Assembly: GCA_964019695.1 (NCBI GenBank)
Contig: OZ026517.1
Location: forward strand, 53,809,672-53,873,671
DNA length: 64,000 nucleotides
Reading direction: 5' to 3'
From: Loripinus fragilis
Lineage: Eukaryota > Mollusca > Bivalvia > Lucinida > Lucinidae
Within the stretch, counting starts at the first letter, position 1. The number at the start of each line of letters is the position of its first letter. Made by a program: the position numbers and the translations under genes. The notes beneath the pieces are model-generated. The model searched no databases. It saw nothing but the letters and a program-made list of their open reading frames with translations, and had not been told where the DNA came from. Of this stretch, positions 25,015 through 60,900 are shown piece after piece.

Positions 25015-28000
25015 GTAAGAGTCGCCCCAGTAGTTGTTTTTATTCCTTACTACAGTGCAGACCCTTTATAATGCTATGTTTGGTTCCATATGAATGGACC
25101 ATGTTAAAAGTGAATCATGTTAATATAAAGAGAATTTTACAAAGGAATTACAGGAAAATTACCATTTGATTTTGATGGTATTTTTCCTATAATTCTAAAT
25201 GTAAAATACCATGGTAAAACCACAACATGACTGTTTTGTATCCAAATCCCCGTTATGATGAGGGGTGTTAAAAAGGGATTGCACTGTATTTGCAACATGT
25301 ACACTGTATCCTAATTTCTCAGATTTGCCAAAGACCTAGGGAGCTTTGTTCATTTTTAGAGCAATTTACAGCATTTGTCCCTATAAGTAGTCAGAGCACG
25401 TACTTCTACAGCTGATTGTTATAATCAATTATATGCATGGCAATTTAGCAAGGAATTTTTCAAGAAACTGAAAGGCCTTGTCATATTATTGCTGTTTTCC
25501 CTTTCTACAACACCTAAAGGTACTCATTTTAAGTATAAGAATTTATGTAAGTGTTTAGGCCTAAATGAAATATATGTGTGGTTCCTGTTGCATACCAACA
25601 AAATTTAGGGTAGGTAGGTAGGGAAATTATTAAATTTTGTTATAACATTTAACAAAGAAAATAGTGACAAAATCTGAAAAAGTGCCCATTTTAGGTATTT
25701 TTTCTCTAAATACCATTTTATTGTTTAGGGTAGGGTTAAAAAAAAATAGGGTAGGTAGGCAACAGGAACCACACATATATTTCATTTAAGCCTAAGTAGA
25801 TACTTAACATAATAAAAAAAACCTTTCCTTTCTTTGTTACTTTCAGAATCAGTCATGGCATAATGCATGTGATTTAGTTACAAATGATGTCACCAGGACA
25901 AGGGTTAACTATTTGCCTACTGGGTATTATTTTTTCATGCTTTTCGTCATCGGCAGAATTTTTCAAAATCAACTTTTTTGACAAATTTTAAGAATACCAC
26001 CGGAGTGTCAAACCAGATTGGATCCAGATCAGGCTTGATGCTTTGTCGGGCCCGATCTGGGTCCTATCTGTTTGCAAAGGGTATCAGCAGACAACACTAG
26101 TAGGCAAAGAGTTGATAAACTACTGTTCTAATTCTATTGTTACACAGACCAAGACACATGGCTTCAGAAGATAACACAAAGAGGGAACCAGCCCGAGGAT
26201 TGGTTAGAGTACATAAGTCTCGTCAAATGTGAAGTGACCTTTCCGAACAACATTGCAAGGCATAACTTCTTGAACGATCTCTATGAGAAAGCTCTTCATG
26301 TGAGTACATGTACTTTTCCTGTAACTCTGCATGCTTGGTTATTTTGAATGATTTTGTCATCTGCTGATTTCTCTTTCAAAATCAACATTTTTAAAAACTT
26401 TCAGGAATACCATCAGTGTCAAACAGTTTGGATCAAGATCAGGTTAGATTCTATTTGCAAAGGTTATCAGCAGATGGCACTGGCAGTCATATATGTCCAG
26501 ATAAGGATCGTATGTGCACTTATTGCATTTATTTCCTTACCCATCAATTTAAATATGTGTTTTGGGTGCTCAAAAGAACCGTCTCTTTGAGACGGTTCTT
26601 TTGAGTACCCACAACAAATGTTTTGGTTGAGAAAATAAGAAAAATAATTTTCAAATATGCAAAGATATTCATTTTAAGTATTTTAATTTATCTGATCTGG
26701 GGGGGCTGCAGACAGGCAGAGCTAAATTAATGTTATATATAGTTCATGCATAATTGTGAGGAGTACAGTGGCTCTGTGGTAAAATGCTTGACTTGAGAGA
26801 TAGGGGTTGTCAGTTCGAGTCTCACTGGAGGCACTGCATTGTGTTCTTGAGCAAGACACTTTCTCCTCTGCTTAGTACTGGTTCAACCCAGGAAGACTGG
26901 TCCCAGTATGTCTGAAAATTTGTTGATTGGGACGTATAGTCGTAAAACAAACAAAAACATAATTATTTTGACTGCATGTTCCCAGCTTTTCAAAGTGGGA
27001 AGAAGATGAAGATGGTAGTATGTTGCTTTTCAGGGCTTGCCTGTAGTATTATCCATGGAATAGATGATTACGCAAGGTAATTTCCTGCCAAGTGACCACT
27101 GATGATACATTGACAATTGATTGGTCAACATATGATAATAGAATGTTCCCATCATCTCGATCAATTGACTGCCATTGCACATTTGCTCCAATATATGTAG
27201 ATAACACAACAAAAATGGCGAAGAATCCAGCAGCAGTATAAATCATAATTTCATTAAAAAAGCACATAACTATGAAACCATGACTGTTGATCAATGCTGG
27301 TATATGGAGGAAGATAGCACATACAATTGTTTATTTAAAGGATATGTACATGAGCCTGTAAGCTGAATAATAACACAGACACTTTGGGTCAGTAGAGAAA
27401 ATCTAGAACGTTATGGCATCTTTGTACTCGCCGTATTAACTCTTTCCTTATTAGAAGCAACTTTTTGGTCTTCTGCTGATAACCTTTGCATTCAGTTTGA
27501 ACCCGAATCAGGCCCGACAAAATGTCAGGTTTGGTCTGATCTGGATCCGATCTGTTTGATACTCTGAAATATAGTATACCTGAAAAAAATTCTATAATGT
27601 TGATTTTAAAAACATCAGCAGACGACAAGAAAGCATAAAAAATTACCCAGCATGCAAAGAGAAAAGAGCCTTTTTTTCCTTTTCCTTACAGGAAATCAAG
27701 TTAGATAACAACAGGAACAGTGAGGCTTATGCCAGGCTTTTTGTCAATTATGCTTGGTTAAAAAGGTAAGTGTTCCAAACAAAAGGTAAAAATATTTTGT
27801 TTCCTTCTGGGATTGGTCATATAGAATATCAAATTAAAGGGAATGAAGCATAGAACAGCATGCAAACAAGAAGCTTGACCTTAAGACGGCATGATTTAGT
27901 TGTCCTGACTGTCATGGATTACAAATCATGCCAATTCACACCAGACTGCTATTATTCCTTATTACAGGATCATGTATGTATCAAGACGGCATGATTTAGT

Positions 28001-31000
28001 TGTCCTGACTGTCATGGATTACAAATCATGCCAATTCACACCAGACTGCTATTATTCCTTATTACAGGATCATGTATGTATCAAGACGGCATGATTTAGT
28101 TGTCCTGACTGTCATGGATTACAAATCATGCCAATTCACACCAGACTGCTATTATTCCTTATTACAGGATCATGTATGTATCAAGACGGCATGATTTAGT
28201 TGTCCTGACTGTCATGGATTACAAATCATGCCAATTCACACCAGACTGCTATTATTCCTTATTACAGGATCATGTATGATTTCAAAAGTCAGCACAACAA
28301 ATCATGTGGAATAGAACTTGTTTTATTTGCCATTACAAAGTAAAACCGAATAAACCAATCAGCTTGTATGCCACTGAGGTAAATGGCTTTCCCATTCAAA
28401 TGGGGGAAAGTTTACACAGTTTCCATTCATAACATTCTCTAGATAAGTGAGTTACAGTTGTAGAATAAATCCTAGGTCAGCAAAAGATGACCTGATAGGC
28501 TGATATTGAATTTTTTATCCTGAAACCTTCAGAAGAACTGAACTCTTTCTTTCAGTATATGGAGAAACATTGATTAATTATTCCTTAAACATCATTCACA
28601 TCCAACCTGACAAAGCTTCTAAACCCTTTAGGATCCTCTGAATACACATCATTCATTAGAAAAACATGAGATCCCTATTGCATATGTCTGCGTATCCAAG
28701 ATTTTGCCAAGCCCAGTCTGTAACATGTCTGGCTACAGATGCAAGTCTAAATGCAGATCTCGGTGGTCACGAATTTGATCCCAGCCCGGTCCCATACTTT
28801 CATGGAGATTGATCGTAAAATAATTTATACAGTCATTTTCCTACCTTGTGCTGATTCATTCAAGAAGGGCTGTTGTCAGTTACAAACGAAAGTATGTGCA
28901 CGAAGTACTGGTTAATTACTTGTGGTTATGTGAGCTGACAGTATGAAACCATAGCTGTTGACTGGGATGTAAAGCGATAAACCAACCCCCCCCCCCCCCA
29001 CCTGCCCAAAAAAAGCCTAGACATGACTTCTTTACTTTGTTTTTATCTTGACAGTGAGTACTTGGCAGAGGATGTTCAGATGATCTTCAATCAGGCCAGG
29101 GGTATAGCTCGCAAGTTTGCTTTCGTCCACATAGCCTCAGCCAAGTTCGAGCTGGAAACTCTAGGTAAGTCCTCCATGTATCATGTTCATAGTTCATACA
29201 CTAGGGTAAAGTCGGGTATATTGAGACAAGACAGCTAAATTTGGACAGCAACCATGTTTGTTTCATATTCCAAATATTGGAATAAAAAATAAATTACTTA
29301 AGCAACAGTGAAAATCCTGATGAGACGGCTTATAAGGAGCCGTCTCATCTGGATTTACACTGTTTGCAACGGTGTGTCCGAATTTTCCTGACTTTACCCT
29401 AATTGATTCTTACTTCTGATTTAATGCAATAAACATGGGATGGTACATTGTGTAAATTGAGGGGTCACAGGTTGTAAGTATTTCTTTCTCTAAAGATGTT
29501 TTTGTTCGGTCAAACAGTGTAGACCCTGATGAAATGCAGTATTATACAGCATTTCATCTGGGTCTTCAATGTTTGCCAAGGTACGAATTTAGGAGTCACT
29601 AATTTACGAAAGTTTAACAGCTGACCAACTCCATTCATGGATCCAGCTGCTTCTCGTCAAAACAGTTCTTTTGAGTGCTGCAACCTCGTATGGTTCTATT
29701 TAGACCTACTCCAGTACTAGACTAGCTGCAAGTATATGATATGACACATTGATGAAAAATTGTTTTTAGGACTGGAGGCAGTCTAGATTTGATTGTGAAA
29801 TAAGAAAATAAATTTTCTATTATGTACTCCAAGGACAGATGAACCAGATCTGCCTTGTGTGCAACTTGTGTACTCTTATATGGAGGTAGGGAGCGCAGTG
29901 GCTCAGTCGTAGAGTGCTTGTCTGGAGACCGAGGGGCTGTGGGTCCGAACCTCACCGGCATAACTTGGTTGTGTCCTTGAGCAAGAGCATTAATTCTAGC
30001 TTAGTACTGGTTCAACCCAGGAAGACCCGTACCTTTATAACTGAAAGATTGAGAATCAAATCTAACAAAATAAAAAATCTTTATTGAGGTCTAATGCCTA
30101 GGTAACTCTTAAGGTAAACATAATGATGCCTTGACTTTCAACGGGTGCACATCTTATAGGTCTTGAAAAATACCTTGATTTTGATGTTTGTCTTGAAAAC
30201 CCCTTGATTTTGATGTATGCCTTGAACACAGGTGGTAAACCTAGGAACTACTACAAAATTGTGTTATCATAAAACTATTCCCATGCCACATATTATGAGA
30301 CATATCAGGGTAGTTGGCCACATATGGGATATATCGGGGTAGTTGCAACTTCAAAAAACGATAAACAAAGATTGGTGTCATTCTTATTTATATTTTACCA
30401 TGATGGACGAATAATTGAATTGTGGAGAAGTTGGGCAATGTGGTTCCATGTAAATGTATCTAAGCTTCCTCTATAGCCCAAAAGTCATTTGCTTACTCTA
30501 AATCTTTCTTTAGACCACTTTTCTCCAAAGACTGTCAGTTTGAAAGAATTCGGTTATATCTCAGTTAATTTGAACTGAGTGACTGAGTGTTGGAAACATT
30601 ACTGATACAAATGCCCTTGATAAATGTTTCTACATAGAACATAGAAATCAAGTGTAAACTAGTAAAGGGTTCAGGCGCCGTTTTTTGAGGCATAGTAGTT
30701 TCCAGATCATCTAGGTAGTTTCCATGCTACTTTTGAGTGCCCAAAACATATGTTTTGGTCGAGAAATAAGAGAATTGTTTTTAACTACCTTATCTAAAGT
30801 GATGGGAGTTATTTATATATGTTACATAATACCAGGACTTTAGTTAAGAGTGTGAACGAAAATTTGATTTTCTTATTTCTCAACCAAAACATATGTCGTG
30901 TGTACTCAAAAGAACCGTTTCAATGAGACGGTTCTTTTGAGCACCCAAAACATCTGTTAAAATTGATGGGTAAGAAAATATTAACAATTTTATGCAGAAA

Positions 31001-34000: not shown

Positions 34001-37000
34001 AAATTATCTTGCCAATGCAAGCAGGCAATTGATATTTTACACCCCTGGATGCTGATTTTAGCCTATTGATAATTCACAGATTACATGTAGATATTTTATC
34101 CCTTTTTTGGAGCGAAAAAATAGCTGAAATTCAGCTTTAGTTTCAGTGTTACTTATCACTTCTCACAAAATAGCAAGTAAATTTGTAAATTATGAAAGGG
34201 GTACACCAATTAAGAGTAGGTGCCAATGTGAAGACCTTCCCTTTTCAATAACACTGTAAAAATGTTGCTAAAACTTAAACTGCAAGCTGCTTTCCCCGCC
34301 AAAATTGGGGTTTTCTGACAATCTATATACAATGTACAAAGTTCCCTACTTGCTAGTATCTGTTATATAGGTAAAGGGAAATAATTTTTGAAAAAATAGT
34401 CCCAATTGGTGCACTCTGTGACCCCTTTTGGTTGTTTTTGTATGCTTTTGGAGGGGGGTGGGAAGAGGGGTGGTGTGGAAATCATCAAAATATAGATTCA
34501 AAACTAGGTGCTTCTTAAAAGCTCAAGAAAAAGACGTTAGACAGACCAAAATATGGTGGACCCACTTTTGTTTAAGCCAGTACTTGTTTGAATTTTGTGT
34601 ATTGGATTCTCGCAGCATGTCTCTCTCGATCAGTTTTCTGTAGGAGAAAAAAATGGCTGGATTTCAGAGATATTTTATGGAATAAAGTGTACCTCTCTGC
34701 AAGAAAGCAAACTTGCTTGGATGGCTTGATTTTAATGACTTTCTTCGGTGGCATTTTGCAGACAGCTTGTGGTGAAACAAGGGTGAAGCCAAAAGTAAAA
34801 ACACAGCATCCTCAGCTTGATTCTGCAAGCTACACTATTGATCTGCCGCAGACTTATGCTTGTTTCATCTCTAACTGATCCATATTTAAAATGCAGATAC
34901 GAAGATTTGCGATGCCCTCTGTATGGCAATTGGAAATAAAACAAACACAAACAAAGAAACCAATATGGATTCCCTCTACCTTTTTCCTAACATGTAAACA
35001 AGAAGTGAAAATGCAATATTTCGGGACATTGCGCTCTGGAAAAACATTAAATGCGTATTAATGAGTATTTAGTTTTTTGTACATGATATGCACTGGAATT
35101 TAAATAAATGCGTATCCTGCTTAATATTTGAGTAATTTATGCGGTACTCAGGCTTATCTTTAACCCTGCCCAGGGTCCCTTTATTTAAACTTCAAAACTC
35201 TTAGCCCAGGGAAATGAAAGTCTCAGTGACTCTTAAAACTTTTTTTGGAGGGAAAAACCTGGAACAAAGTCTCATGTGCTGGCTCATATGTTGTAGATAC
35301 TCATTGGACGCATCTTATTGAGACATTTTCAATGAGCATCCAACAAATGATTTCCAATGGCAATAGGAAACATATCACTATATTTTGTTAAGAATGAAAA
35401 ACATGTCATTTATGGCAATTTTAGGTCAAGAATACCCACAGATCATAAGGAGATAGAAGCCATTAAACCTGTACCACTGTCCAGTCTAGACCACAACACG
35501 ACAGAACCAAAACAGACTCACCATCCACCCATGGAACCATGTAGTTCAACAGTGAAACGAGGATTTCATAAATATCACAGTACACCCGTGCTTAACAGTG
35601 AAAAGAAGTAAGTTTTTCATGTCAAGATAAACATACTTTTTGAGCTTAAAATGATTAATATTTTCTTACCCATAATTGTTAGCATATGTTTTGGGTGCTA
35701 AAAAGAAGCATCTCATTGAGACAGTTCTTTTGAGTACCCACAACATATGTTTTGGTTGAGAAATAAGAAAAATATTTTTCTGTTATGCACTCTAGTTTTA
35801 ACTAAAGGCCTGGAGCTGGAGTATGGAGTGTACTTATTCACTAAAGTGATGAGCTTATTGTTATTAGAAATCAGGTATTAACAATCGATAGTTGAAAGTA
35901 CTATTGCAATAGATATCCACTTGAAAAATATGCTATTAGAGTACAAAGTTATCGCAATACATGGATTGACCATTACAGAACTACAATGACTCCCTTTGGA
36001 ATGCCTTATTGAACTTTCAGCATGTTTTAACCCTTAAAGCGCCAATCACAAGTGCAGCAGACAACAAATTTTGCGACATCTTTTTTAATTTTCGAAAAAA
36101 ATAAGGTATGATATTTCATGATAATCGTCTGCCAGCAGACGATCCTCATGAAATATGCCATATTTGTTATTTTTGAAAAAGCAGCAAAATTTTAAATTGT
36201 CATCTGCTGCAAATTATAGGAGGTGCTTAAAGGGTTAACCATTTACCTGCTACGAAAAATCCATGTGAAAAAATCATCTTCTAAAGTTGTCTGTTGAAGT
36301 TGTAAGCTGCATGTAAATGCTTACGCCAAGGACAAATTTCGTCAAACTTTGTTTCTATCTGTATAATTGCAGAAGATCAAAAGATTTTCCTCCTCCTCTG
36401 AGGGTCAAGAGGATCAACCTGCCATTTACTTTATATTTCTATCTGTATAATTGCAGAAGATCAAAAGATTTTCCTCCTCCTCTGAGGGTCAAGAGGATCA
36501 ACCTGCCATTTATTTTATATTTCTATCTGTATAATTGCAGAAGATCAAAAGATTTTCCTCCTCCTCTTAGGGTCAAGAGGATCAACCTGCCATTTACTTT
36601 ATATTTCTATCTGTATAATTGCAGAAGATCAAAAGATTTTCCTCCTCCTCTGAGGGTCAAGAGTATCAACCTGCCATTAACTTTATGTTTCTATCTGTAT
36701 TATTGCAGAAGATCAAAAGATTTTCCTCCTCCTCTGAGGGTCAAGAGTATCAACCTGCCATTTACTTTATATTTCTATCTGTATAATTGCAGAAGATCAA
36801 AAGATTTTCCTCCTCCTCTTAGGGTCAAGAGTATCAACCTGCCATTTACTTTATATTTCTATCTGTATAATTGCAGAAGATCAAAAGATTTTCCTCCTCC
36901 TCTGAGGGTCAAGAGGATCAACCTGCCATTTACTTTATGTTTCTATCTGTATGATTGCAGATCAAAAGATTTTCCTCCTCCTCTGAGGGTCAAGAGGATC

Positions 37001-40000
37001 AACCTGCCATTAACTTTGTGTTTCTATCTGTATAATTGCAGAAGATCAAAAGATTTTCCTCCTCCTCTGAGGGTCAAGAGGATCAACCTGCCATTAACTT
37101 TGTGTTTCTATCTGTATAATTGCAGAAGATCAAAAGATTTTCCTCCTCCTCTGAGGGTCAAGAGGATCAACCTGCCATTAACTTTGTGTTTCTATCTGTA
37201 TAATTGCAGAAGATCAAAAGATTTTCCTCCTCCTCTGAGGCTCAAGAGGATCAACCTACCATTTATTTTATGTTTCTATCTATTATTGCAGAAGATCAAA
37301 AGATATTCCTCCTCCTCTGAGGGTCAAGAGGATCAACCTGCCATTAACTTTATGTTTCTATCTGTATAATTGCAGAAGATCAAAAGATTTTCCTCCTCCT
37401 CTTAGGGTCAAGAGGATCAACCTACCATTTACTTTTAGTTTCTATCTGTATAATTGCAGAAGATCAAAAGATTTTCCTCCTCCTCTGAGGGTCAAGAGGA
37501 TCAACCTGCCATTAACTTTATGTTTCTATCTGTATGATTGCAGAAGATCAAAAGATTTTCCTCCTCCTCTGAGGGTCAAGAGGATAAACCTGCCATTTAC
37601 TTTGTGTTTCTATCTGTATAATTGCAGATCAAAAGATTTTCCTCCTCCTCTGAGGGTCAAGAGGATCAACCTGCCATTACCTTTGTGTTTCTTTCTGTAT
37701 AATTGCAGAAGATCAAAAGATTTTCCTCCTCCTCTGAGGGTCAAGAGGATCAACCTGCCATTAACTTTATGTTTCTACCTGTATTATTGCAGAAGATCAA
37801 AAGATTTTCCTCCTCCTCTGAGGGTCAAGAGGATCAACCTACCATTTATTTTATGTTTCTATCTATTATTGCAGAAGATCAAAAGATTTTCCTCCTCCTC
37901 TGAGGGTCAAGAGGATCAACCTACCATTTATTTTATGTTTCTATCTGACAGTGTATAATTGCAGAAGATCAAAAGATTTTCCTCCTCTTAGGATCAAGAG
38001 GATCAACCTACCATTTACTTTTAGTTTCAATCTGTATAATTGCAGAAGATCAAAAGATTTTCCTCCTCCTCTGAGGGTCAAGAGGATCAACCTACCATTT
38101 ATTTTATGTTTCTATCTGTATAATTGCAGAAGATCAAAAGATTTTCCTCCTCCTCTGAGGGTCAAGAGGATCAACCTACCATTTACTTTTAGTTTCTATC
38201 TGTATAATTGCAGAAGATCAAAAGATTTTCCTCCTCCTCTTAGGGTCAAGAGGATCAACCTACCATTTATTTTATGTTTCTATCTATTATTGCAGAAGAT
38301 CAAAAGATTTTCCTCCTTCTCTGAGGGTCAAGAGGATCAACCTACCATTTATTTTATGTTTCTATCTATTATTGCAGAAGATCAAAAGATTTTCCTCCTC
38401 CTCTGAGGGTCAAGAGGATCAACCTACCATTTATTTTATGTTTCTATCCGTATAATTGCAGAAGATCAAAAGATTTTCCTCCTCCTCTTAGGGTCAAGAT
38501 AATCAACCTACCATTTACTTTTAGTTTCTATCTGTATAATTGCAGAAGATCAAAAGATTTTCCTCCTCCTCTGAGGGTCAAGAGGATCAACCTGCCATTA
38601 ACTTTATGTTTCTACCTGTATTATTGCAGAAGATCAAAAGATTTTCCCCCTCCTCTGAGGGTCAAGAGGATCAACCTACCATTAACTTTATGTTTCTATC
38701 TATATAATTGCAGAAGATCAAAAGATTTTCCTCCTCCTCTGAGGGTCAAGAGGATCAACCTGCCATTAACTTTATGTTTCTATCTGTATAATTGCAGAAG
38801 ATCAAAAGATTTTCCTCCTCCTCTGAGGGTCAAGAGGATCAACCTGCCATTAACTTTATGTTTCTTCCTGTATTATTGCAGAAGATCAAAAGATTTTCCC
38901 CCTCCTCTGAGGGTCAAGAGGATCAACCTGCCATTAACTTTATGTTTCTACCTGTATTATTGCAGAAGATCAAAAGATTTTCCCCCTCCTCTGAGGGTCA
39001 AGAGGATCAACCTACCATTTACTTTATGTTTCTATCTGTATGATTGCAGAAGATCAAAAGATTTTCCTCCTCCTCTGAGGGTCAAGAGGATCAACCTACC
39101 ATTTACTTTAAGTTTCTATCTGTATGATTGCAGAAGATCAAAAGATTTTCCTCCTCCTCTGAGGGTCAAGAGGATCAACCTGCCATTTACTTTATATTTC
39201 TATCTGTATAATTGCAGAAGATCAAAAGATTTTCCTCCTTCTCTGAGGGTCAAGAGGATCAACCTGCCATTTACTTTATATTTCTATCTGTATAATTGCA
39301 GAAGATCTAAAGATTTTCCTCCTCTGAGGGTCAAGAGGATCAACCTGCCATTTACTTTATATTTCTATCTGTATAATTGCAGAAGATCAAAAGATTTTCC
39401 TCCTACTCTGAGGGTCAAGAGGATCAACCTGCCATTAACTTTATGTTTCTATCTGTATAATTGCAGAAGATCAAAATATTTTCCTCCTCCTCTGCGGGTC
39501 AAGAGGATCAACCTACCATTTACTTAATGTTTCTATCTGTATTATTGCAGAAGATCAAAAGATTTTCCTCCTCCTCTGAGGGTCAAGAGGATCAACCTGC
39601 CATTTAGCTATGAGGAGGAAGAGGAACATGATTCCTTAGACAGTTTCAAACCTCTCGATACTCATCATGGAAATGGTAAGATTTGAATAGCAGATACAGT
39701 TCAGTCCCTTTATTACACTATATTTGGGGTCCTTAGGAATGGACTGTGTTATACGAGAACAGTGTTATTAAGGGACAATTTTACAAAAGAATTATAGGAA
39801 AATGACCATTTTATGGTCATTTTCCTTTAATTCCTTTGTAAAATTTCGTGATAAATTTTTGGAGCCAAAGCATGACTGTTTTATATCCAAATCCATGTTA
39901 TAATGAGGTGTGTTATAAAGGGACTACACTGTATACTCCAAATTTTGAACACCTACTTTTGTCAAATGGAACCTTCCATTTGTATTGTGTTATGCCCCCA

Positions 40001-42933
40001 AAGGAACTTTGTGAGGCATATAGCAGGGGTGATAAAGTTCAGGATTAATCAGGATTTTCTGATTGAGCACTCATGCATTTTGCATATAAAATCAAATTTA
40101 TTATTGCTGTAATTTGTTATCAGAACCTATCATGATCTTTTAATCACATATTTAATAAAGAAAAGCGTAAACGGATTGCTTTCTACGGATGTTTTGTTCT
40201 TTTTAACATTTTATTGGTGATTTCTGAACACTTTTGGCCAAGTTCTGGAATGGATTGAGCTTAAAGATTTTCCTGATTGAGAATCTTGGACTGTTACCAC
40301 CCCTGATATAGTAATCACACTGTCAGTCCGTCCGTCCCCCTTCGTGTCCGCTGCATATCTCCTATATTCTTTGAGATAGGAATTCCATATTTGGTTTGTG
40401 GATACATCATGGGATGGCGGAGTGTCGCGTATCATTTTCGGGTCACTGTGACCTTGACCTCTGACATGGTTTTTAGAATAATCGTGTCCGGAGCATATCT
40501 CTTATGTTATTTGAGGTAGGAATCTCAAATTTGGTGTGTGGATGCATCTTGGGTTGACAAAGTGTCGCTATTCATAATTGGGTCACTGTGACCTTGAACT
40601 TGACCTTTGACCTAGTTTCTAGAAACTGCATTGAGTCTGGTGCATATCCCCAATATTCTTTGAAATAGGAGTTCCAAATTTGGTGTGTAAATGCATCTTA
40701 GGATTACAGAGTGTCACATATCATTTTGGGGTCACTGTGACCTTGACCTCTGACCTAGTTTTAAGAATTATTGTCTCCGGATTCTATCTCTTACATTCTT
40801 TGAGGTAGGAACACCAAATTTTGTGTGTGAATGCATCTTGGGATGGTGGAATGTCGCATACCAATTTTGGATCACTGTGACCTTTACCTTGACCTCTGAC
40901 CTAGCTTTTAAAATAATCGTGTCCAGAGCATATCTCTTATATTATTTGAGGTAGGAATCCCAAATTTGGTGTGTGGATGCATCTTGTGATGACGAAATGC
41001 TGTATACCATAATTGGGTCACTGTGACTTTGAACTTAACCTCTGACCTAGTTTCTAGAAACTGCATTGAGTCTGGTGCATATCTCCTTAATTCTTTGAGA
41101 TAGAAATTCCAAATTTGGTTTGTAAATGCATCTTGGGATGACGAAGGGTCACATACCATTTTCTGGTCACTGTGACCTTGACCTCTGACATAATTTTAAG
41201 AATTATTGTGTCCGGAGCATATCTCTTATATTCTTTGAGGTAGGAATTCCAAATTTGGTGTGTGGATGCATCTTGGGATGGTGGAGTGTCGTGTACCATT
41301 TTTGGGTCACTGTGACCTTGACCTCTGACCTAGTTTTTAGAATAATCATGTTTGGAGCATATTTTTCTATATTATTTGAGCTTGGAATCCCAAATTTGGT
41401 GTATCTTTGCATCTTGGGATGGCAGAGTGTCATGTATCAGTTTTGTGACCTTGACTTTATTTCTACAATAATTGTGTCAGGAGCATACCTCATATATTAT
41501 TTGAGGGAGAATTTCCAAATTTGCTGTATGGATACATCTTTGGATGCTGATGTGTCCCATACCATTTTTAGGTCAATGTGATCTTGACCTATGACCTAGT
41601 TTCTAGAATAATTTGGTCTGTAGCATATCTCCCATATTATTTGGTGTAGGAATCCCAAAATTTGGGGTGTTGATTCCTCTTGGGATGGCGGAGTGGTGCA
41701 TACGATTTTGGGTCACTTTGACCTTGACATTGACTTCTGGCCTCAATTGTTAACATTGTTGAATGATTCACAATTGGATAGGCTATTAGAATATATTATG
41801 AGAATGGGATAGAAGGGAAAGAAAAATTATCATGAGGATCACCCTTTGACATCACGATCAAGGGCTTGCCGAATGATGACAAACAGTGGGATCAAAGGGA
41901 CAGATTTTTCTTTACCATCCTCACTGAAAAACATGTACTGGATTCTAATGGATCCACATAAAAAGGCTCTCAGAAACTCCTGAAGATGTGAGAGAAGACT
42001 TCACTTTTAGCATTGCAGCCATGTGTATGATGTGAATTTCTATCCCAGGGTAAATGTCCGTATCTGGTGTACAAGAATGTGTGTGATACCTCAAATACCA
42101 GGCAGTGGTGGAGTTTAACCAAATATGCAAATGGTATTACATTTGAGTATGATAAGTATGATCCCATCCACGAGACGTGATACAGTATGCCAGATCAAGT
42201 TACTATTATAATAATATGTTTATTATATACCTTTTTCCAATGATTATTCTGATTTTATAAATTGTTTTGGTATTTAATCCTGAAAAATGCGGGAATGTTT
42301 GCCATTACGTTTCATTACATGATGTTACGTCATCATGTTTTCCGCCTCCGGTTCCATTCTTGAAATTTACTTTACGCAATGTTGACGCAAAAACAGGTAA
42401 CCCACGTTAGCCTCGTTTTAAAGGATAGTGATACAAATTCAGAAAACCTCAGTTTGTTGATCCGGCTTTCTGTATCCGATGACCAGAAAACAGACAGTTC
42501 AAACGTTGTATCATTTATTGGTATATAATAAAGAGTTGTGACAGCCTTATTTAAAGGTCACTCTTGCACACATATTTTGAGAATGCTACCTAGGAAAGAG
42601 TTAAGTACCCACCACAGCCATGTGGTTACTGATTTCTTAAATCATTTTCAGGAACTTTGGGGCTCAGTCATGCCCACACCTCGGGATACCAGTCCATGAC
42701 ACAATTCACAGACTGCACAATTTCTACAGAAATAAAACCACCACAACCAAAGGTAGGTTTTTTACTTTAGTAAATTATGTTTTTGTTTATCAGACAATAT
42801 TCAGTTACTCATGATCTCAATAAAAGGGTTTTTAGTTGTCCATGCATCTCGTAAATACAACCGATACAAAGACTTTCTCTCATACATTGGCCCTGGAAGG
42901 GGGCATTTGTGTCACACTGACACATTTCTAGCC

Positions 42934-51900: not shown

Positions 51901-54900
51901 ATATACAATATAATATGTCCCTTTTCCATGATATGAAAATCTGTCACTCAGGCTTGGCTGAATATGCATAAACAAGTCTGCCAGGACAAGTTGTTTACGC
52001 ATATTCAGCCAAGCCTGAGTAAACATGTGTTTTGGGTGTTTAAAAGAACCATCTGATTGAGATGGTTCTTTTGAGTACCCACAACATATGTTTTGGTTGA
52101 GAAATGAGAGGATAATTTTCAGTTAGGCACTCTTACCTGGGGGCCTGTGCTCAGCTATAGAAACAAGCTAGAATTGTATGGAGCAAGCTAAGATATAACA
52201 CTTTGCAATGAGCGAAAACTAAAGGCGCTGATCAGTCTGCACTGATGTGCAGGCTGGTCTGTTCCTTTGTTGTTCGCACATTTGTCTTTTCTTTTCTTCG
52301 TATTTTGTAGGTGTATAAGGTAATTGATAGTCAACATGCTGTTAAGGCAGTAAAGGTGGTCAACCTTGATAACGCTAATGAGACAATCGTGGAGGGCTAC
52401 AAGAATGAAATAAAACTGCTCAGGAGGTTACAGTACTGTGATAAAGTCATCAAGATGTATGACAGGTAAGTCTACTTGAGTTATTTGATAACGCCAATGA
52501 GACAATCCTGGAGGGCTACAAGAATGAAATAAAACTGCTCAGGAGGTTACAGTACTGTGATAAAGTCATCAAGATGTATGACAGGTAAGTCAATTCGAGC
52601 TACGGTAAATGTTCTAAAATTTTGAACACTTTTCTCTTTCTGTTCTCAAATAAAATGTTGGTTTTCAGGGATGCTTGTCAGAATAGCAAACAGAGAAGAC
52701 CCTGATCAGACTACTTCTTCAGAATCTGATCTGTGTCTGCCCTATATGATTAGGCCTTTTTGGCACTTGGCAGGCAACTAGAATCTGATCTGTGTCTGTC
52801 CTGTATGTCTAGGCCTTTTTGGCACTTGGCAGGCAACTAGTGTCTGATTTGTGTGCGCTGTATGTCTAGGCCTTTTTGGCACTTGGCAGGCAACTAGTGT
52901 CTGATCTGTGTGCGCTGTATGTCTAGGCCTTTTTGGCACTTGGCAGGCAACTAGTGTCTGATCTGTGTACCCTGTATGTCTAGGCCTTTTTAGCATTTGG
53001 CAGGCAACTAGTGTCTTATCTGTGTGCCCTGTATGTCTAGGCCTTTTGGCACTTGGCAGGCAACTAGTGTCTGATCTGTGTGCCCTGTATGTCTAGGCCT
53101 TTTGGCACTTGGCAGGCAACTAGTGTCTGATCTGTGGGCGCTGTATGTCTAGGCCTTTTGGGCACTTGGCAGGCACCTAGTGTCTGATCTGTGTGCGCTG
53201 TATGTCTAGGCCTTTTTGGCACTTGGCAGGCAACTAGTGTCTGATCTGTGTGCGCTGTATGTCTAGGCCTTTTTGGCACTTGGCAGGCAACTAGTGTCTG
53301 ATCTGTGTGCGCTGTATGTCTAGGCCTTTTTGGCTACCAGTAGTGTCTGATCTGTGTCTGTGTTGTTTGTCTAGGCCTTTTTGGCACTTGGCAGGCAACT
53401 AGTGTTCAAAATTTTAGAACATTTACCTTATGTTGGTGTAGGCTTAAGACTGGCAAAAAGGCCAAATTCTAGTTTCTTGCTGATGTTAGCGAAAAGGGCA
53501 GTGGCGCAGCTGGTAGAGTGTTAGGATTTGGATCAAAGGGTCGCTTGTTCAAGACTCACTGGAGGCAGTGTGTTGTGTCCTTGACCAAGACACTTTATCC
53601 TTTGTTTATATAGTGCTGGTTCAGCCGAGGAAGACAGGAAAACATCCCAACATGACTAAAAATTGTTGACTGGGATGCAAAGCAACAACAAATAGAAGCA
53701 AAATATCGAAAAGCTTTTTAAAGTATTACAGCCTTTTGAAATGGTGACACTTTATTAAACCCTATAAATATCAATCATGACTGCAGCAGACAAAAAATTG
53801 TAACATTTTTCTTCATTTTTCTGCAAACAAGGCTTGATATCTCATATGAATCATCTGCTGGCAATGTTCTTCTAAGACAAATACAAAAACTGAAAGTAAT
53901 GTCTGCTGCATATGGTTGTCTGTGCTTTAAGGGTTAACTATTTCCTTGCTAGCAGCCAACTTCTGTCTTAGTCTGATAATCTTTGCAAACAGTTTGGACC
54001 CAAATCAATATGTCAGTCCTTACCTGGATCCAAACCAGTAGCCAAGATCTTGCCTCATTCTTCAAATGTTGAACGAAAGATCGAAAGGCAAACATTGAAC
54101 CCCCGCCTCAAGGAATTTAATTTAAAGTTGCCTTCAACCTCCTAGTGATACTTTTTCCTGTAATAGCCTTTAGTGCAGGTGATGTTGTTAAATGTAAGCC
54201 TGCATGTCACAAAGTTACTCATCTTGCAAAGTTTTTAATCATAGGTCCAGATAATGAAGTTTTTAGTATAAAAATATAATTATTTTCTTACCCATCAATT
54301 GAAACATGTGTTTTGGGTGCTCAGAAGAACCGTCTCATTGAGACGGTTCTTTTGAGTACCCACAACATATGTTTTGGTTGAAAAATAAGAAAACAATAAT
54401 TTACAATTATACACTCATATCTGAAGGCCTGCTCATTTACTTTGTTTCAGTGAGTATGTTCCTGATGAGAACAGGCTATATGTAGTAATGGAATCTGGTA
54501 GCGAAGATCTTGCCTCATTCTTCAAAAGTAGAACGAAAGATCGAAAGGTGCTGTCGGATAATCTTGTCAGATATTATTGGGAGTTTATGTTAGAGGCTGT
54601 GCAAGCACTCCATAGAGAAGGTGGGTTATACAGTAAAACCTGTCTTAAGCAGTCACTCAAAAAGAAGACCAAAAATTGGTTTTCAAGACCAATTATCGCT
54701 TATTGCAGCCCACAAGCATTGCAGAATGCTCCAAAAGAGCATTCTGCAATACTTTTGACCTTCATAAGCTCCCATTTGTCTGTAAGATCTTTGTTTTGTA
54801 TATTTTTGTGTGATTGCTTTAGACAGGTTTACTGTATGCTATTCTATCACATGACATTGTGCCTGGGAGTGATATAGTGCCATGTATTTAAATTGATTAA

Positions 54901-57900: not shown

Positions 57901-60900
57901 CTGACTGAACACCATTTGGAGTTTCTAAGCTTTACAGGAGGCTGCAGAGGCTCGTCCGAATGTCTACACTTGTCAAAATGTCTAATTGTTGGAAATCTCA
58001 TGCCGGGGCTCAGTTATTACTTAAAATATGTAGCACTTTTTCGTTAGATTTTACCTAAGCTTAATACAGCTTACCTCAGACTAATACTATTGACTTCAAG
58101 TCAATATTGGTTAACCTTGGATCAATACAGTGTACATGTGAAGTTAGGGCTATTCCAGAAAAAAAACCTGGTGGTGGGCTGGGGAAGAAGGCAAAGAATA
58201 TATTTTTCTATGGGTGGTTGGTGACTTGGTTTTGACATTTTTTAAATTATATGGGTCATTGGTGTTTGAAAAAATCTGATAACATGGGTGGTGGGGTTTT
58301 ATCGGAAACCCTGCTACTGACGTTTGATAGGTATATCGAATTGAACCTTTCTGTATCAATCAAAATATCAAATCCCAATTGTTTAAAACAGCTGAGTTGG
58401 ACCAATGAGGGTGATGTCAGACAGAAAAATACAAATAAAGTTTTGCAAGTTGATCTGAAACCATTTGCTTCAAAACTAAAACGCATGAAGCTTTTCATTC
58501 ATTGACAGTTGTTGTTTTCTGTAGAGGTGGTTATTGGAAATGTCATATGTCGATGGGCGTAGACAAGACAGTATAGGAAAATGAGAATGACTTGCACTTT
58601 CCTCTTTCTTTTACGGAAGTTTATTAAAATAATTCACCTGGGTAGATGTTAGACTCGCTTACTCTATATCAATATCGATCATTTTGTATCGACACACATA
58701 TCTTTTTTAATTCTATGGATAGTTGGTATATGAACCTTTCTGATAACATGGGTAGTCGGTATCAAAAATATGTCACCTTGTAAGGATGCCTGGTTCTACA
58801 TTTTATGTCTATTGCAGATTGGTGTGAAGAGTGATGTCTGGTCACTTGGCTGTATTCTATACAACATGGTGTACGGCAGAACCCCCTTTCAGCATTTACG
58901 GCATGATTTCTCTATTTTATGTCTATTGCAGATTGGTGTTAAGAGTGATGTCTGGTCACTTGGCTGTATTCTATACAACATGGTGTATGGCAGAACCCCA
59001 TTTCAGCATTTGCGGCACGATTTCTCTATTATTACATCTATTGCAGATTGGTGTTAAGAGTGATGTCTGGTCACTTGGCTGTATTCTCTACAACATGGTG
59101 TACGGCAGAAACCCATTTCAGCATTTGCGGCACGATTTCTCTATTATTACATCTATTGCAGATTGGTGTTAAGAGTGATGTCTGGTCACTTGGCTGTATT
59201 CTCTACAACATGGTGTATGGCAGAACCCCATTTCAGCATTTACGGCACGATTTCTCTATTATTACATCTATTGCAGATTGGTGTAAAGAGTGATGTCTGG
59301 TCACTTGGCTGTATTCTATACAACATGGTGTATGGCAGAACTCCATTTCAGCATTTACGGCACGATTTCTCTATTTTATGTCTATTGCAGATTGGTGTGA
59401 AGAGTGATGTCTGGTCACTTGGCTGTATTCTCTACAACATGGTGTACGGCAGAACCCCATTTCAGCATTTACGGCACGATTTCTCTAAGCTACAAGCAAT
59501 CATCAATCCAGAATTTCCAATAGAGTTTCCTGACATTCCAAACAAGCATCTTATAGATGTAATGCAGGTACATAGAAATATTTGAGGCGCAACATGTGAT
59601 TTCCAACAATGTGGCATTTTGACAAGTGTAGATTCTGTGCAGCCTCCTGTTAAGCTTAGAAACTCCAAATGATGTTCAGTCAGTAGCTTACCATTCATAG
59701 AATAGTCAAGGGACCAGGCTGGTCTGAGCCTTTGCTGGTCGCACATACCATATTGTTGGAAATCTCATGCCATGGCTCAAGTAATGTTTATTTTCAAACA
59801 CAAGACACTTTGTTATGTCCTTGAGCAAGATACTTATCCTCTGCTTAGTACTGGTTTAACCTAGGAAGACAGGAAATTCTGCGGACATGATTAAAAAATT
59901 GTTGACAATGACATAAGTCATCCGCACTGGCAAAAAGAGTTTTGGGCCATCACAAGAGGGATTGGTTCTTATCACATTGACAAGCAGCAAAGACCCAGAT
60001 GAGACCGGGCAGTCTTGCCAGAGCCCCGGCTGCTCACATAAAGAATGGAAGTAGACGGAGGATCAGTCCAAATTCATCACTCTATCCCCACTAGATAGCT
60101 GTGCATGCATGTGTTAAGCATTACTTAACATATGTGTGATAAGTATCAAAATCTCCTGGTCAGTCTGGGCAGTAATGCGGATTGTAAAACATTAGTTCTA
60201 ATTGTAAAATAATAACTGAAAAGAAATAAAATCAAAATGGGACTGGCTTGTTTTCAACACTCTTTTGGTGACCAATTTATTTCATCTACATTACTCATTA
60301 TGCCCCCAACTTTGAAAAAGTTGAAGGGGCATATTGCTTTGGGCGCATCCGTCCGTCCGTCCGAACAAAAATTAAGTTAGGGAGTTTTAAATTTCATAGA
60401 TTCCCCATCAAAAATTAACCGACCTGCATTTTTTTAAAATCTGGATTATCTGCCTTTGTGAAGTTATGCCCCGTTTAAAGGGTCAGAGTGAAATTTTGTA
60501 ATCAAGATACCTATGAGTTAATTCAGCTAGGAGCTTCAAACTTGGTCAGCGGATGGAGGATAATGAGCAAATAACCTGGTGAAAATTAAAAAGAAGTTAA
60601 TTTTTTTAGTATTTGCCCTTTGCAAATTTTGGCATTGAAAACTTGTAATCAAGATCTCTCAAAAACTATTACAGCTAGTAGCTTCAAACTTGGTCAGCTG
60701 ATAGAAGATAATGAGCAGACTACCTGGTGAAAATTTAAAAGGAAAGTTATTTGATTGTTACGAGTTATTGCCCTTTGCAAGTTTGGGCATTGAAAACTTG
60801 TTATCAAGTTCAAATTAGGTCAGTCGATAGAGGATGATGACCCTTGTGTTATAAAAGATTACCATCCTTCTTGCACAAGCAAAGGATTGGGGGCACAGTG

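Follow-up and report, generated by a model that had tools for sequence, protein, structure and literature searches.

Minisatellites that span the edges of exons have already been described in amphioxus, where they are called 'mirages' (PMC3087553; PMC3902484). In the excerpts of these papers used here, mirage units measure about 10-160 bp, reverse transcription PCR (RT-PCR) suggests that splicing is undisturbed, and both length instability and somatic instability are reported (PMC3087553). The haplotypes of BflGb6 carry six and three units (PMC3087553, PMC3902484), and PGBD5 and TnC were added as further cases (PMC3902484). Here, we describe an array of this kind in a 64,000-nt stretch of the genome of the bivalve Loripinus fragilis (contig OZ026517.1, positions 53,809,672 to 53,873,671, forward strand), referred to as the window. 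The array, termed array A, lies across the edge between intron 7 and exon 8 of the gene for the kinase TTK. We classify it as a mirage-type minisatellite with an extreme copy number; the genome contains several such arrays. Its 38 extra 3' splice sites (acceptors) are probably passed over by way of a predicted pairing between the acceptor and the donor of the exon.

As in the amphioxus cases, units of minisatellite size lie over an exon edge on either the acceptor or the donor side, the copies carry splice signals, and the authentic copy is the one joined to the exon body. The unit lengths found here (84, 119 and 114-115 bp in TTK, 85-145 bp in other genes) fall within the mirage range, and both acceptor and donor edges are affected. 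The mirages differ in their host, which is a lancelet and not a bivalve, and, as far as the excerpts go, in their lower copy number (six and three in BflGb6, against 39 and at least 30 here). An earlier interpretation of the window, made from its letters and referred to below as the sequence-only reading, had held that no system of this form was described; the amphioxus mirages contradict this (PMC3087553, PMC3902484). The form itself is known, and the case is remarkable for its copy number and recurrence.

Other systems are more distant. Intron gain by tandem duplication is similar in that splice signals are included in the duplicated segment, which in the case from potato comprises the end of an intron and the start of an exon. 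According to the part of the literature drawn on here, a new intron or exon arises in that process, whereas array A has no good donor and we infer no new exon from it. Dscam contains an array of mutually exclusive exons, complete copies with donors, which are chosen in turn. In array A, tandem copies likewise run into the tens and each brings its own acceptor, but the copies are partial. The decoy exons of intron retention (PMC8706089) are non-coding intronic splice sites able to compete; in the excerpt used, they carry an acceptor as well as a donor and their effect is demonstrated, whereas the units of array A lack a good donor and are known from sequence alone. The earthworm metallothionein repeats, judged by the accessible part of their description, are a neighbour and not a match. 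Among the literature matches listed, which are open-licence papers, there was no report of boundary arrays in a mollusc, and the arrays described here extend boundary minisatellites beyond lancelets.

Array A at the edge of TTK exon 8

The features of this region are as follows (window coordinates).

35425..35607, + strand, TTK exon 7 with donor GTAAGT at 35608, its reading frame continuous with exons 1-6 and, by way of the last acceptor, with exon 8
36350..39606, + strand, array A, an 84-bp minisatellite across the intron 7-exon 8 edge with 39 TTGCAG acceptors
39523..39530, + strand, TAA stop in frame in unit 38 (at 39525), ending every reading from acceptors 25-38
39551..39675, + strand, TTK exon 8 from the last acceptor, followed by donor GTAAGA; the sole open choice of 39, present as one copy in seven related proteins
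39613..39627 (approximate place), + strand, 15-nt purine run GAGGAGGAAGAGGAA downstream of the repeated part, a candidate splicing enhancer

Tandem Repeats Finder returned one tandem array (36350-39606, period 84, 38.9 copies, 94% matches), and a sequence scan located 39 TTGCAG acceptors whose last bases run from 36372 to 39550. The 38 spacings between them are mostly 84 nt (29 cases), with four of 81, four of 82 and one of 90 nt. Each unit straddles the exon-intron boundary and consists of the intron end and approximately the first 56 nt of exon 8. The whole of exon 8 is reached only from the copy after 39550, the other 38 copies being partial. This confirms the sequence-only reading in its description of an 84-bp array of 39 copies in which a complete acceptor region was amplified. 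Its statement that the units have diverged is equally sustained: 35 different sequences occur among the 38 inter-acceptor units, with a mean pairwise identity of 93.0% and a minimum of 82.1%. The branch-point-like TTAAC, which it took to be present often, is found at -29 in 13 of the 39 acceptors, and it is only a looser YTNAY motif, at -15 to -45, that reaches 37 of them; the first acceptor is without one.

Adjacent units are 94.1% identical and units 31-34 apart 94.6-96.0%. Distant units are therefore as similar as neighbours, which points to turnover within the array. A 23-nt piece of the unit has 31 occurrences in the 1.99-Gb genome (1,987 Mb in 685 contigs, with the window at C4:53809672-53873671), every one within array A, and its reversed control pattern has none. 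Tandem arrays are hard to assemble, and the copy number may be wrong. That the repeats were multiplied by the assembler is nevertheless very improbable, as variants and indels are spread through these largely distinct units and nine independent arrays occur in seven genes.

Substitutions in array A amount to 55 over 29 intron positions and 53 over 55 exon positions. The higher variability of the intron part is given no weight, because 29 of the 53 exon substitutions come from two common variants. TTGCAG is invariant in all 39 acceptors, and this would fit a working decoy, in which the acceptors engage early splicing factors, retain the intron or divert the transcript to decay, much as decoy exons bring about intron retention, and the copy number sets the output of TTK. 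We consider such a role unlikely. Chance accounts for the invariance (P = 0.14), which thus gives no sign of selection keeping or silencing the outer acceptors; the units have no good donor and hence are not exons; unrelated genes carry similar arrays at one or the other end of an exon; and nothing in the related TTK proteins hints that the array is needed.

Reading frame and splice signals

The gene had been proposed to be TTK, and this was borne out, the best database matches of the joined frame being TTK proteins. Its 17 exons join into 767 codons with no stop and with canonical splice ends. In this model, the first exon starts at an ATG and the last piece ends arbitrarily, the C-terminal tail being excluded; the kinase exons were located with a probe based on human TTK. 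The frame shows 62% identity to Mercenaria mercenaria TTK over 62% of the query and 53% identity to Ruditapes philippinarum TTK over the full query. In an alignment with seven related TTK proteins, five of them from named bivalves, the exon 7-8 and exon 14-15 junctions have one copy of each repeated segment in all seven. The stretch from the SEK motif to NLPF/NQPF has the same number of residues in the Mercenaria, Ruditapes and P0004 proteins as in the TTK of the window, is one residue shorter in P0002, and is longer and non-repetitive in two unionid proteins. These counts support TTGCAG as the start of exon 8.

Three boundary duplications in one gene might suggest that the window holds a decaying copy, with a clean TTK elsewhere and arrays of no consequence. 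This is a far-fetched explanation given the stop-free frame with its canonical splice ends. Furthermore, in a Pfam kinase scan of the same genome, with 135 of 1075 candidates scored, the one TTK exon among the matches listed is the window's own (C4:53865928), and the 23-nt piece of the array A unit is found nowhere else.

The donor of exon 7 was correctly placed in the sequence-only reading, with its GT starting at 35608 and the exon ending at 35607. Exons 1-7 were connected to all 39 acceptors in turn, and the frame was open to the end of exon 8 from acceptor 39 alone. Acceptors 1-11 lead to a stop at 37367, which is 2306 nt before that end, acceptors 12-18 to one at 37956 (1717 nt), acceptors 19-23 to one at 38404 (1269 nt), acceptor 24 to one at 38453 (1220 nt), and acceptors 25-38 to the stop at 39525 (148 nt). 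The term decoys is hence justified for 38 of the 39 acceptors in the sense that none of them opens the frame to the end of exon 8. Together, the frame and the related proteins argue for the last acceptor (39551) as the authentic start of exon 8.

Two other interpretations of the array were rejected. A coding repeat is contradicted by stops and frame shifts in every multi-unit reading, and an array of mutually exclusive exons by copies that are not complete open exons, with one of 39 open in frame. A protein search with the repeat peptide of array A gave no match at an E-value of 0.001 among 7991 scored candidates.

Splice sites were scored with matrices derived from TTK itself. The donor matrix was built from 15 own donors of the gene, the same sites that it scores; these reach 7.4-13.6, compared to 1.45 for the best donor in array A. 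Having no good donor, the units are not exons. The acceptor matrix (13 sites) is weak, with leave-one-out scores of real sites ranging from -1.7 to 12.3 and four of the 13 at or below 1.8. The acceptors of array A score low, most of them at 0.8, with the outer ones similar to the authentic one, and 15% of the 2180 AGs in the TTK gene score as high as the last acceptor of array A. Acceptor strength was ruled out as the cause of the choice, the last acceptor being only ninth of 39 by score. In addition, each unit carries a cryptic second AG in its exon part, after a 15-nt pyrimidine run (36373-39606); the triplet at this position is GAG in 32 units, TAG in six and GCG in one. Use of the second AG would remove ten residues which the related proteins keep.

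The purine run of exon 8 is the longest among the 16 TTK exons listed, while the longest in array A has 7 nt. On the best-supported reading, it was too strong to regard the outer acceptors as full competitors, because the units are without a donor and without a purine-rich exon part. An RNA structure that hides the outer acceptors was also considered and rejected: folds of two units (z = -0.83) and of exon 8 with its edges (z = -1.05) show nothing unusual.

Boundary arrays elsewhere in TTK and in other genes

Array A is not a one-off: two more boundary duplications were found in TTK and donor-side arrays in six other genes. In TTK, these are the following.

52311..52465, + strand, TTK kinase exon E12, read to the first donor, which keeps the frame
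52366..52591, + strand, array B, two copies of a 119-bp unit of exon end and donor GTAAGT; the second donor gives a stop
58808..59487, + strand, array C, 114-115-bp units of acceptor and first part of kinase exon E15, with six acceptors
59391..59567, + strand, TTK exon E15 from the last acceptor of array C, placed by frame and related proteins

The last bases of the array C acceptors are 58817, 58931, 59046, 59161, 59276 and 59390. Acceptors 1-4 lead to stops 274-510 nt before the end of E15, and acceptor 6 gives the conserved TTK protein.

For comparison with other genes, 46 kinase loci were examined which had not been chosen for repeats (the 30 best matches and 16 fetched loci, two of them overlapping). 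Tandem partial copies touch the matched exon in two of these. Locus L014 has a donor-side array with seven donors in a kinase that we take, from its motifs, to be TSSK-like; a 65-bp x 10 array lies in the same locus (L014:2933-3591). Locus L025 has 2.7 copies of a 302-bp unit that represents the end of a coding exon of a kinase and shows no visible splice site (L025:759-1592). A further locus, L055, was chosen because the kinase scan showed two matches side by side; it has three donor copies, one of them degenerate, at an exon presumed on the same kind of grounds to be AMPK-like.

A kinesin scan (122 of 327 candidates scored) revealed arrays at the P-loop exon in four of 32 loci among the matches listed, counted by hand with one row per locus. 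The donors number 12 in L056, 7 in L057, at least 5 in L058 and at least 30 in L059, the last two counts being lower bounds since the arrays extend beyond the fetched piece. In each kinesin, only the innermost donor keeps the frame open. Most units of the 107-bp array in L059 (1-3308) carry TTCAG or a similar motif together with CAG/GTAA, so that splicing of very short exons or introns inside this array is conceivable.

Counting TTK, there are nine boundary arrays in seven genes. Arrays A and C are on the acceptor side, array B and those of L014 and L055-L059 on the donor side. They comprise 102 outer sites, 38 in A, five in C, one in B, six in L014, two in L055 and 11, 6, 4 and 29 in the kinesins. 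From 101 of these, the frame meets a stop before the end of the exon, and one is open. As far as predicted frames can tell, this shows that these genes need the innermost site, i.e., the last acceptor or the first donor.

Predicted choice of the innermost site and proposed origin of the arrays

Exon definition is the pairing of acceptor and donor across an exon. A first-come rule predicts use of the first acceptor and the first donor, whereas the frames need the last acceptor and the first donor. This fits pairing across the exon, which predicts the pattern that the frames require in all nine arrays. We thus favour the explanation, which has a good chance of being correct, that the arrays are tolerated passengers. 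In a genome prone to repeats, they would have begun as ordinary tandem duplications that happened to cover an exon edge, and would have grown by unequal exchange or slippage. Exon definition would then give the last acceptor and the first donor alike: outer acceptors may be passed for want of a good donor and a purine-rich exon part nearby, and outer donors because the exon is already defined by a donor that precedes them.

Most of the outer splice products are predicted to be removed by nonsense-mediated decay. By the 50-55 nt rule, stops farther upstream of a junction mark its targets. The stops from the outer acceptors of array A, at least 148 nt before the end of exon 8, would make these products decay targets by this rule. 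Some outer-site stops in other genes lie less than 50 nt from the donor used (33 nt in L055, 11 nt in L059) and are too near for it.

Several observations speak against this explanation. The last acceptor of array A is not the strongest, and the second AG outscores TTGCAG in 38 of 39 units (3.3-8.3, on a small matrix). An exon starting at acceptor 38 would have only 209 nt; this is an ordinary size, and exon pairing alone therefore poorly separates the last two or three acceptors. Acceptor 5 of array C is open and adds 38 residues. The stops from outer sites are partly expected anyway, because outer sites pull intron sequence into the exon. Finally, four kinesin edge arrays were found against 0.95 expected (P = 0.016), which chance placement explains poorly.

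The near-identity of the outer acceptors to the authentic one, their similar scores and the fact that the first acceptor is transcribed first would be in agreement with a noisy use of several acceptors, by which much TTK pre-mRNA ends as nonsense products and the gene bears the cost. TTK is an essential checkpoint kinase, and a heavy loss of it should be selected against. Moreover, RT-PCR in amphioxus, in the excerpt used, suggested regular splicing past such arrays (PMC3087553), and we regard noisy use as improbable.

As to the origin of the arrays, there are 27 tandem arrays with a period of at least 40 in kinase loci totalling 246 kb, and 10 in the 64-kb window. This background density predicts 0.015 edge-spanning arrays per boundary. 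For three such arrays in TTK, random placement gives P values from 0.045 with 8 arrays up to 0.076 with 14. By background density, P is 0.013, a value that is biased since the window was picked for having an array, and 0.074 without array A. The three edge arrays of TTK are near what chance would give in a repeat-prone gene. It is conceivable, although doubtful, that the edges of exons act as hotspots of amplification in L. fragilis. Dozens of acceptor or donor copies would then be generated in many genes by some process linked to splice junctions, such as DNA breakage associated with transcription, and near-absolute exon definition would let the spliceosome cope by using the innermost copy every time. 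The kinesin excess is a hint only, because the kinesin scan favours the detection of arrays that lie in coding exons.

Overall, the sequence-only reading stands with respect to TTK, the amplified acceptor and the decoys; novelty of form and full competition have to be given up, and the array is not unique. One exon preceded by 39 near-identical acceptors and another followed by at least 30 near-identical donors represent natural experiments on splice-site choice. New introns and isoforms could also arise from such arrays, and annotation should proceed with care, as gene finders may call false exons at boundary arrays.

Further repeats are located within introns of TTK. Two minisatellites were observed, one of about 140 bp x 10 at 40344-41743 and one of 57 bp x 12 at 52725-53405, which starts just past the doubled donor of array B. 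At 27883-28278, there are four perfectly identical 100-bp tandem copies, which are either very young or an assembly effect. A decayed 51-bp copy (94%) of part of exon E13 (54498-54548) lies 460 bp upstream in the intron, at 54038-54088, and is possibly the relic of another boundary duplication.

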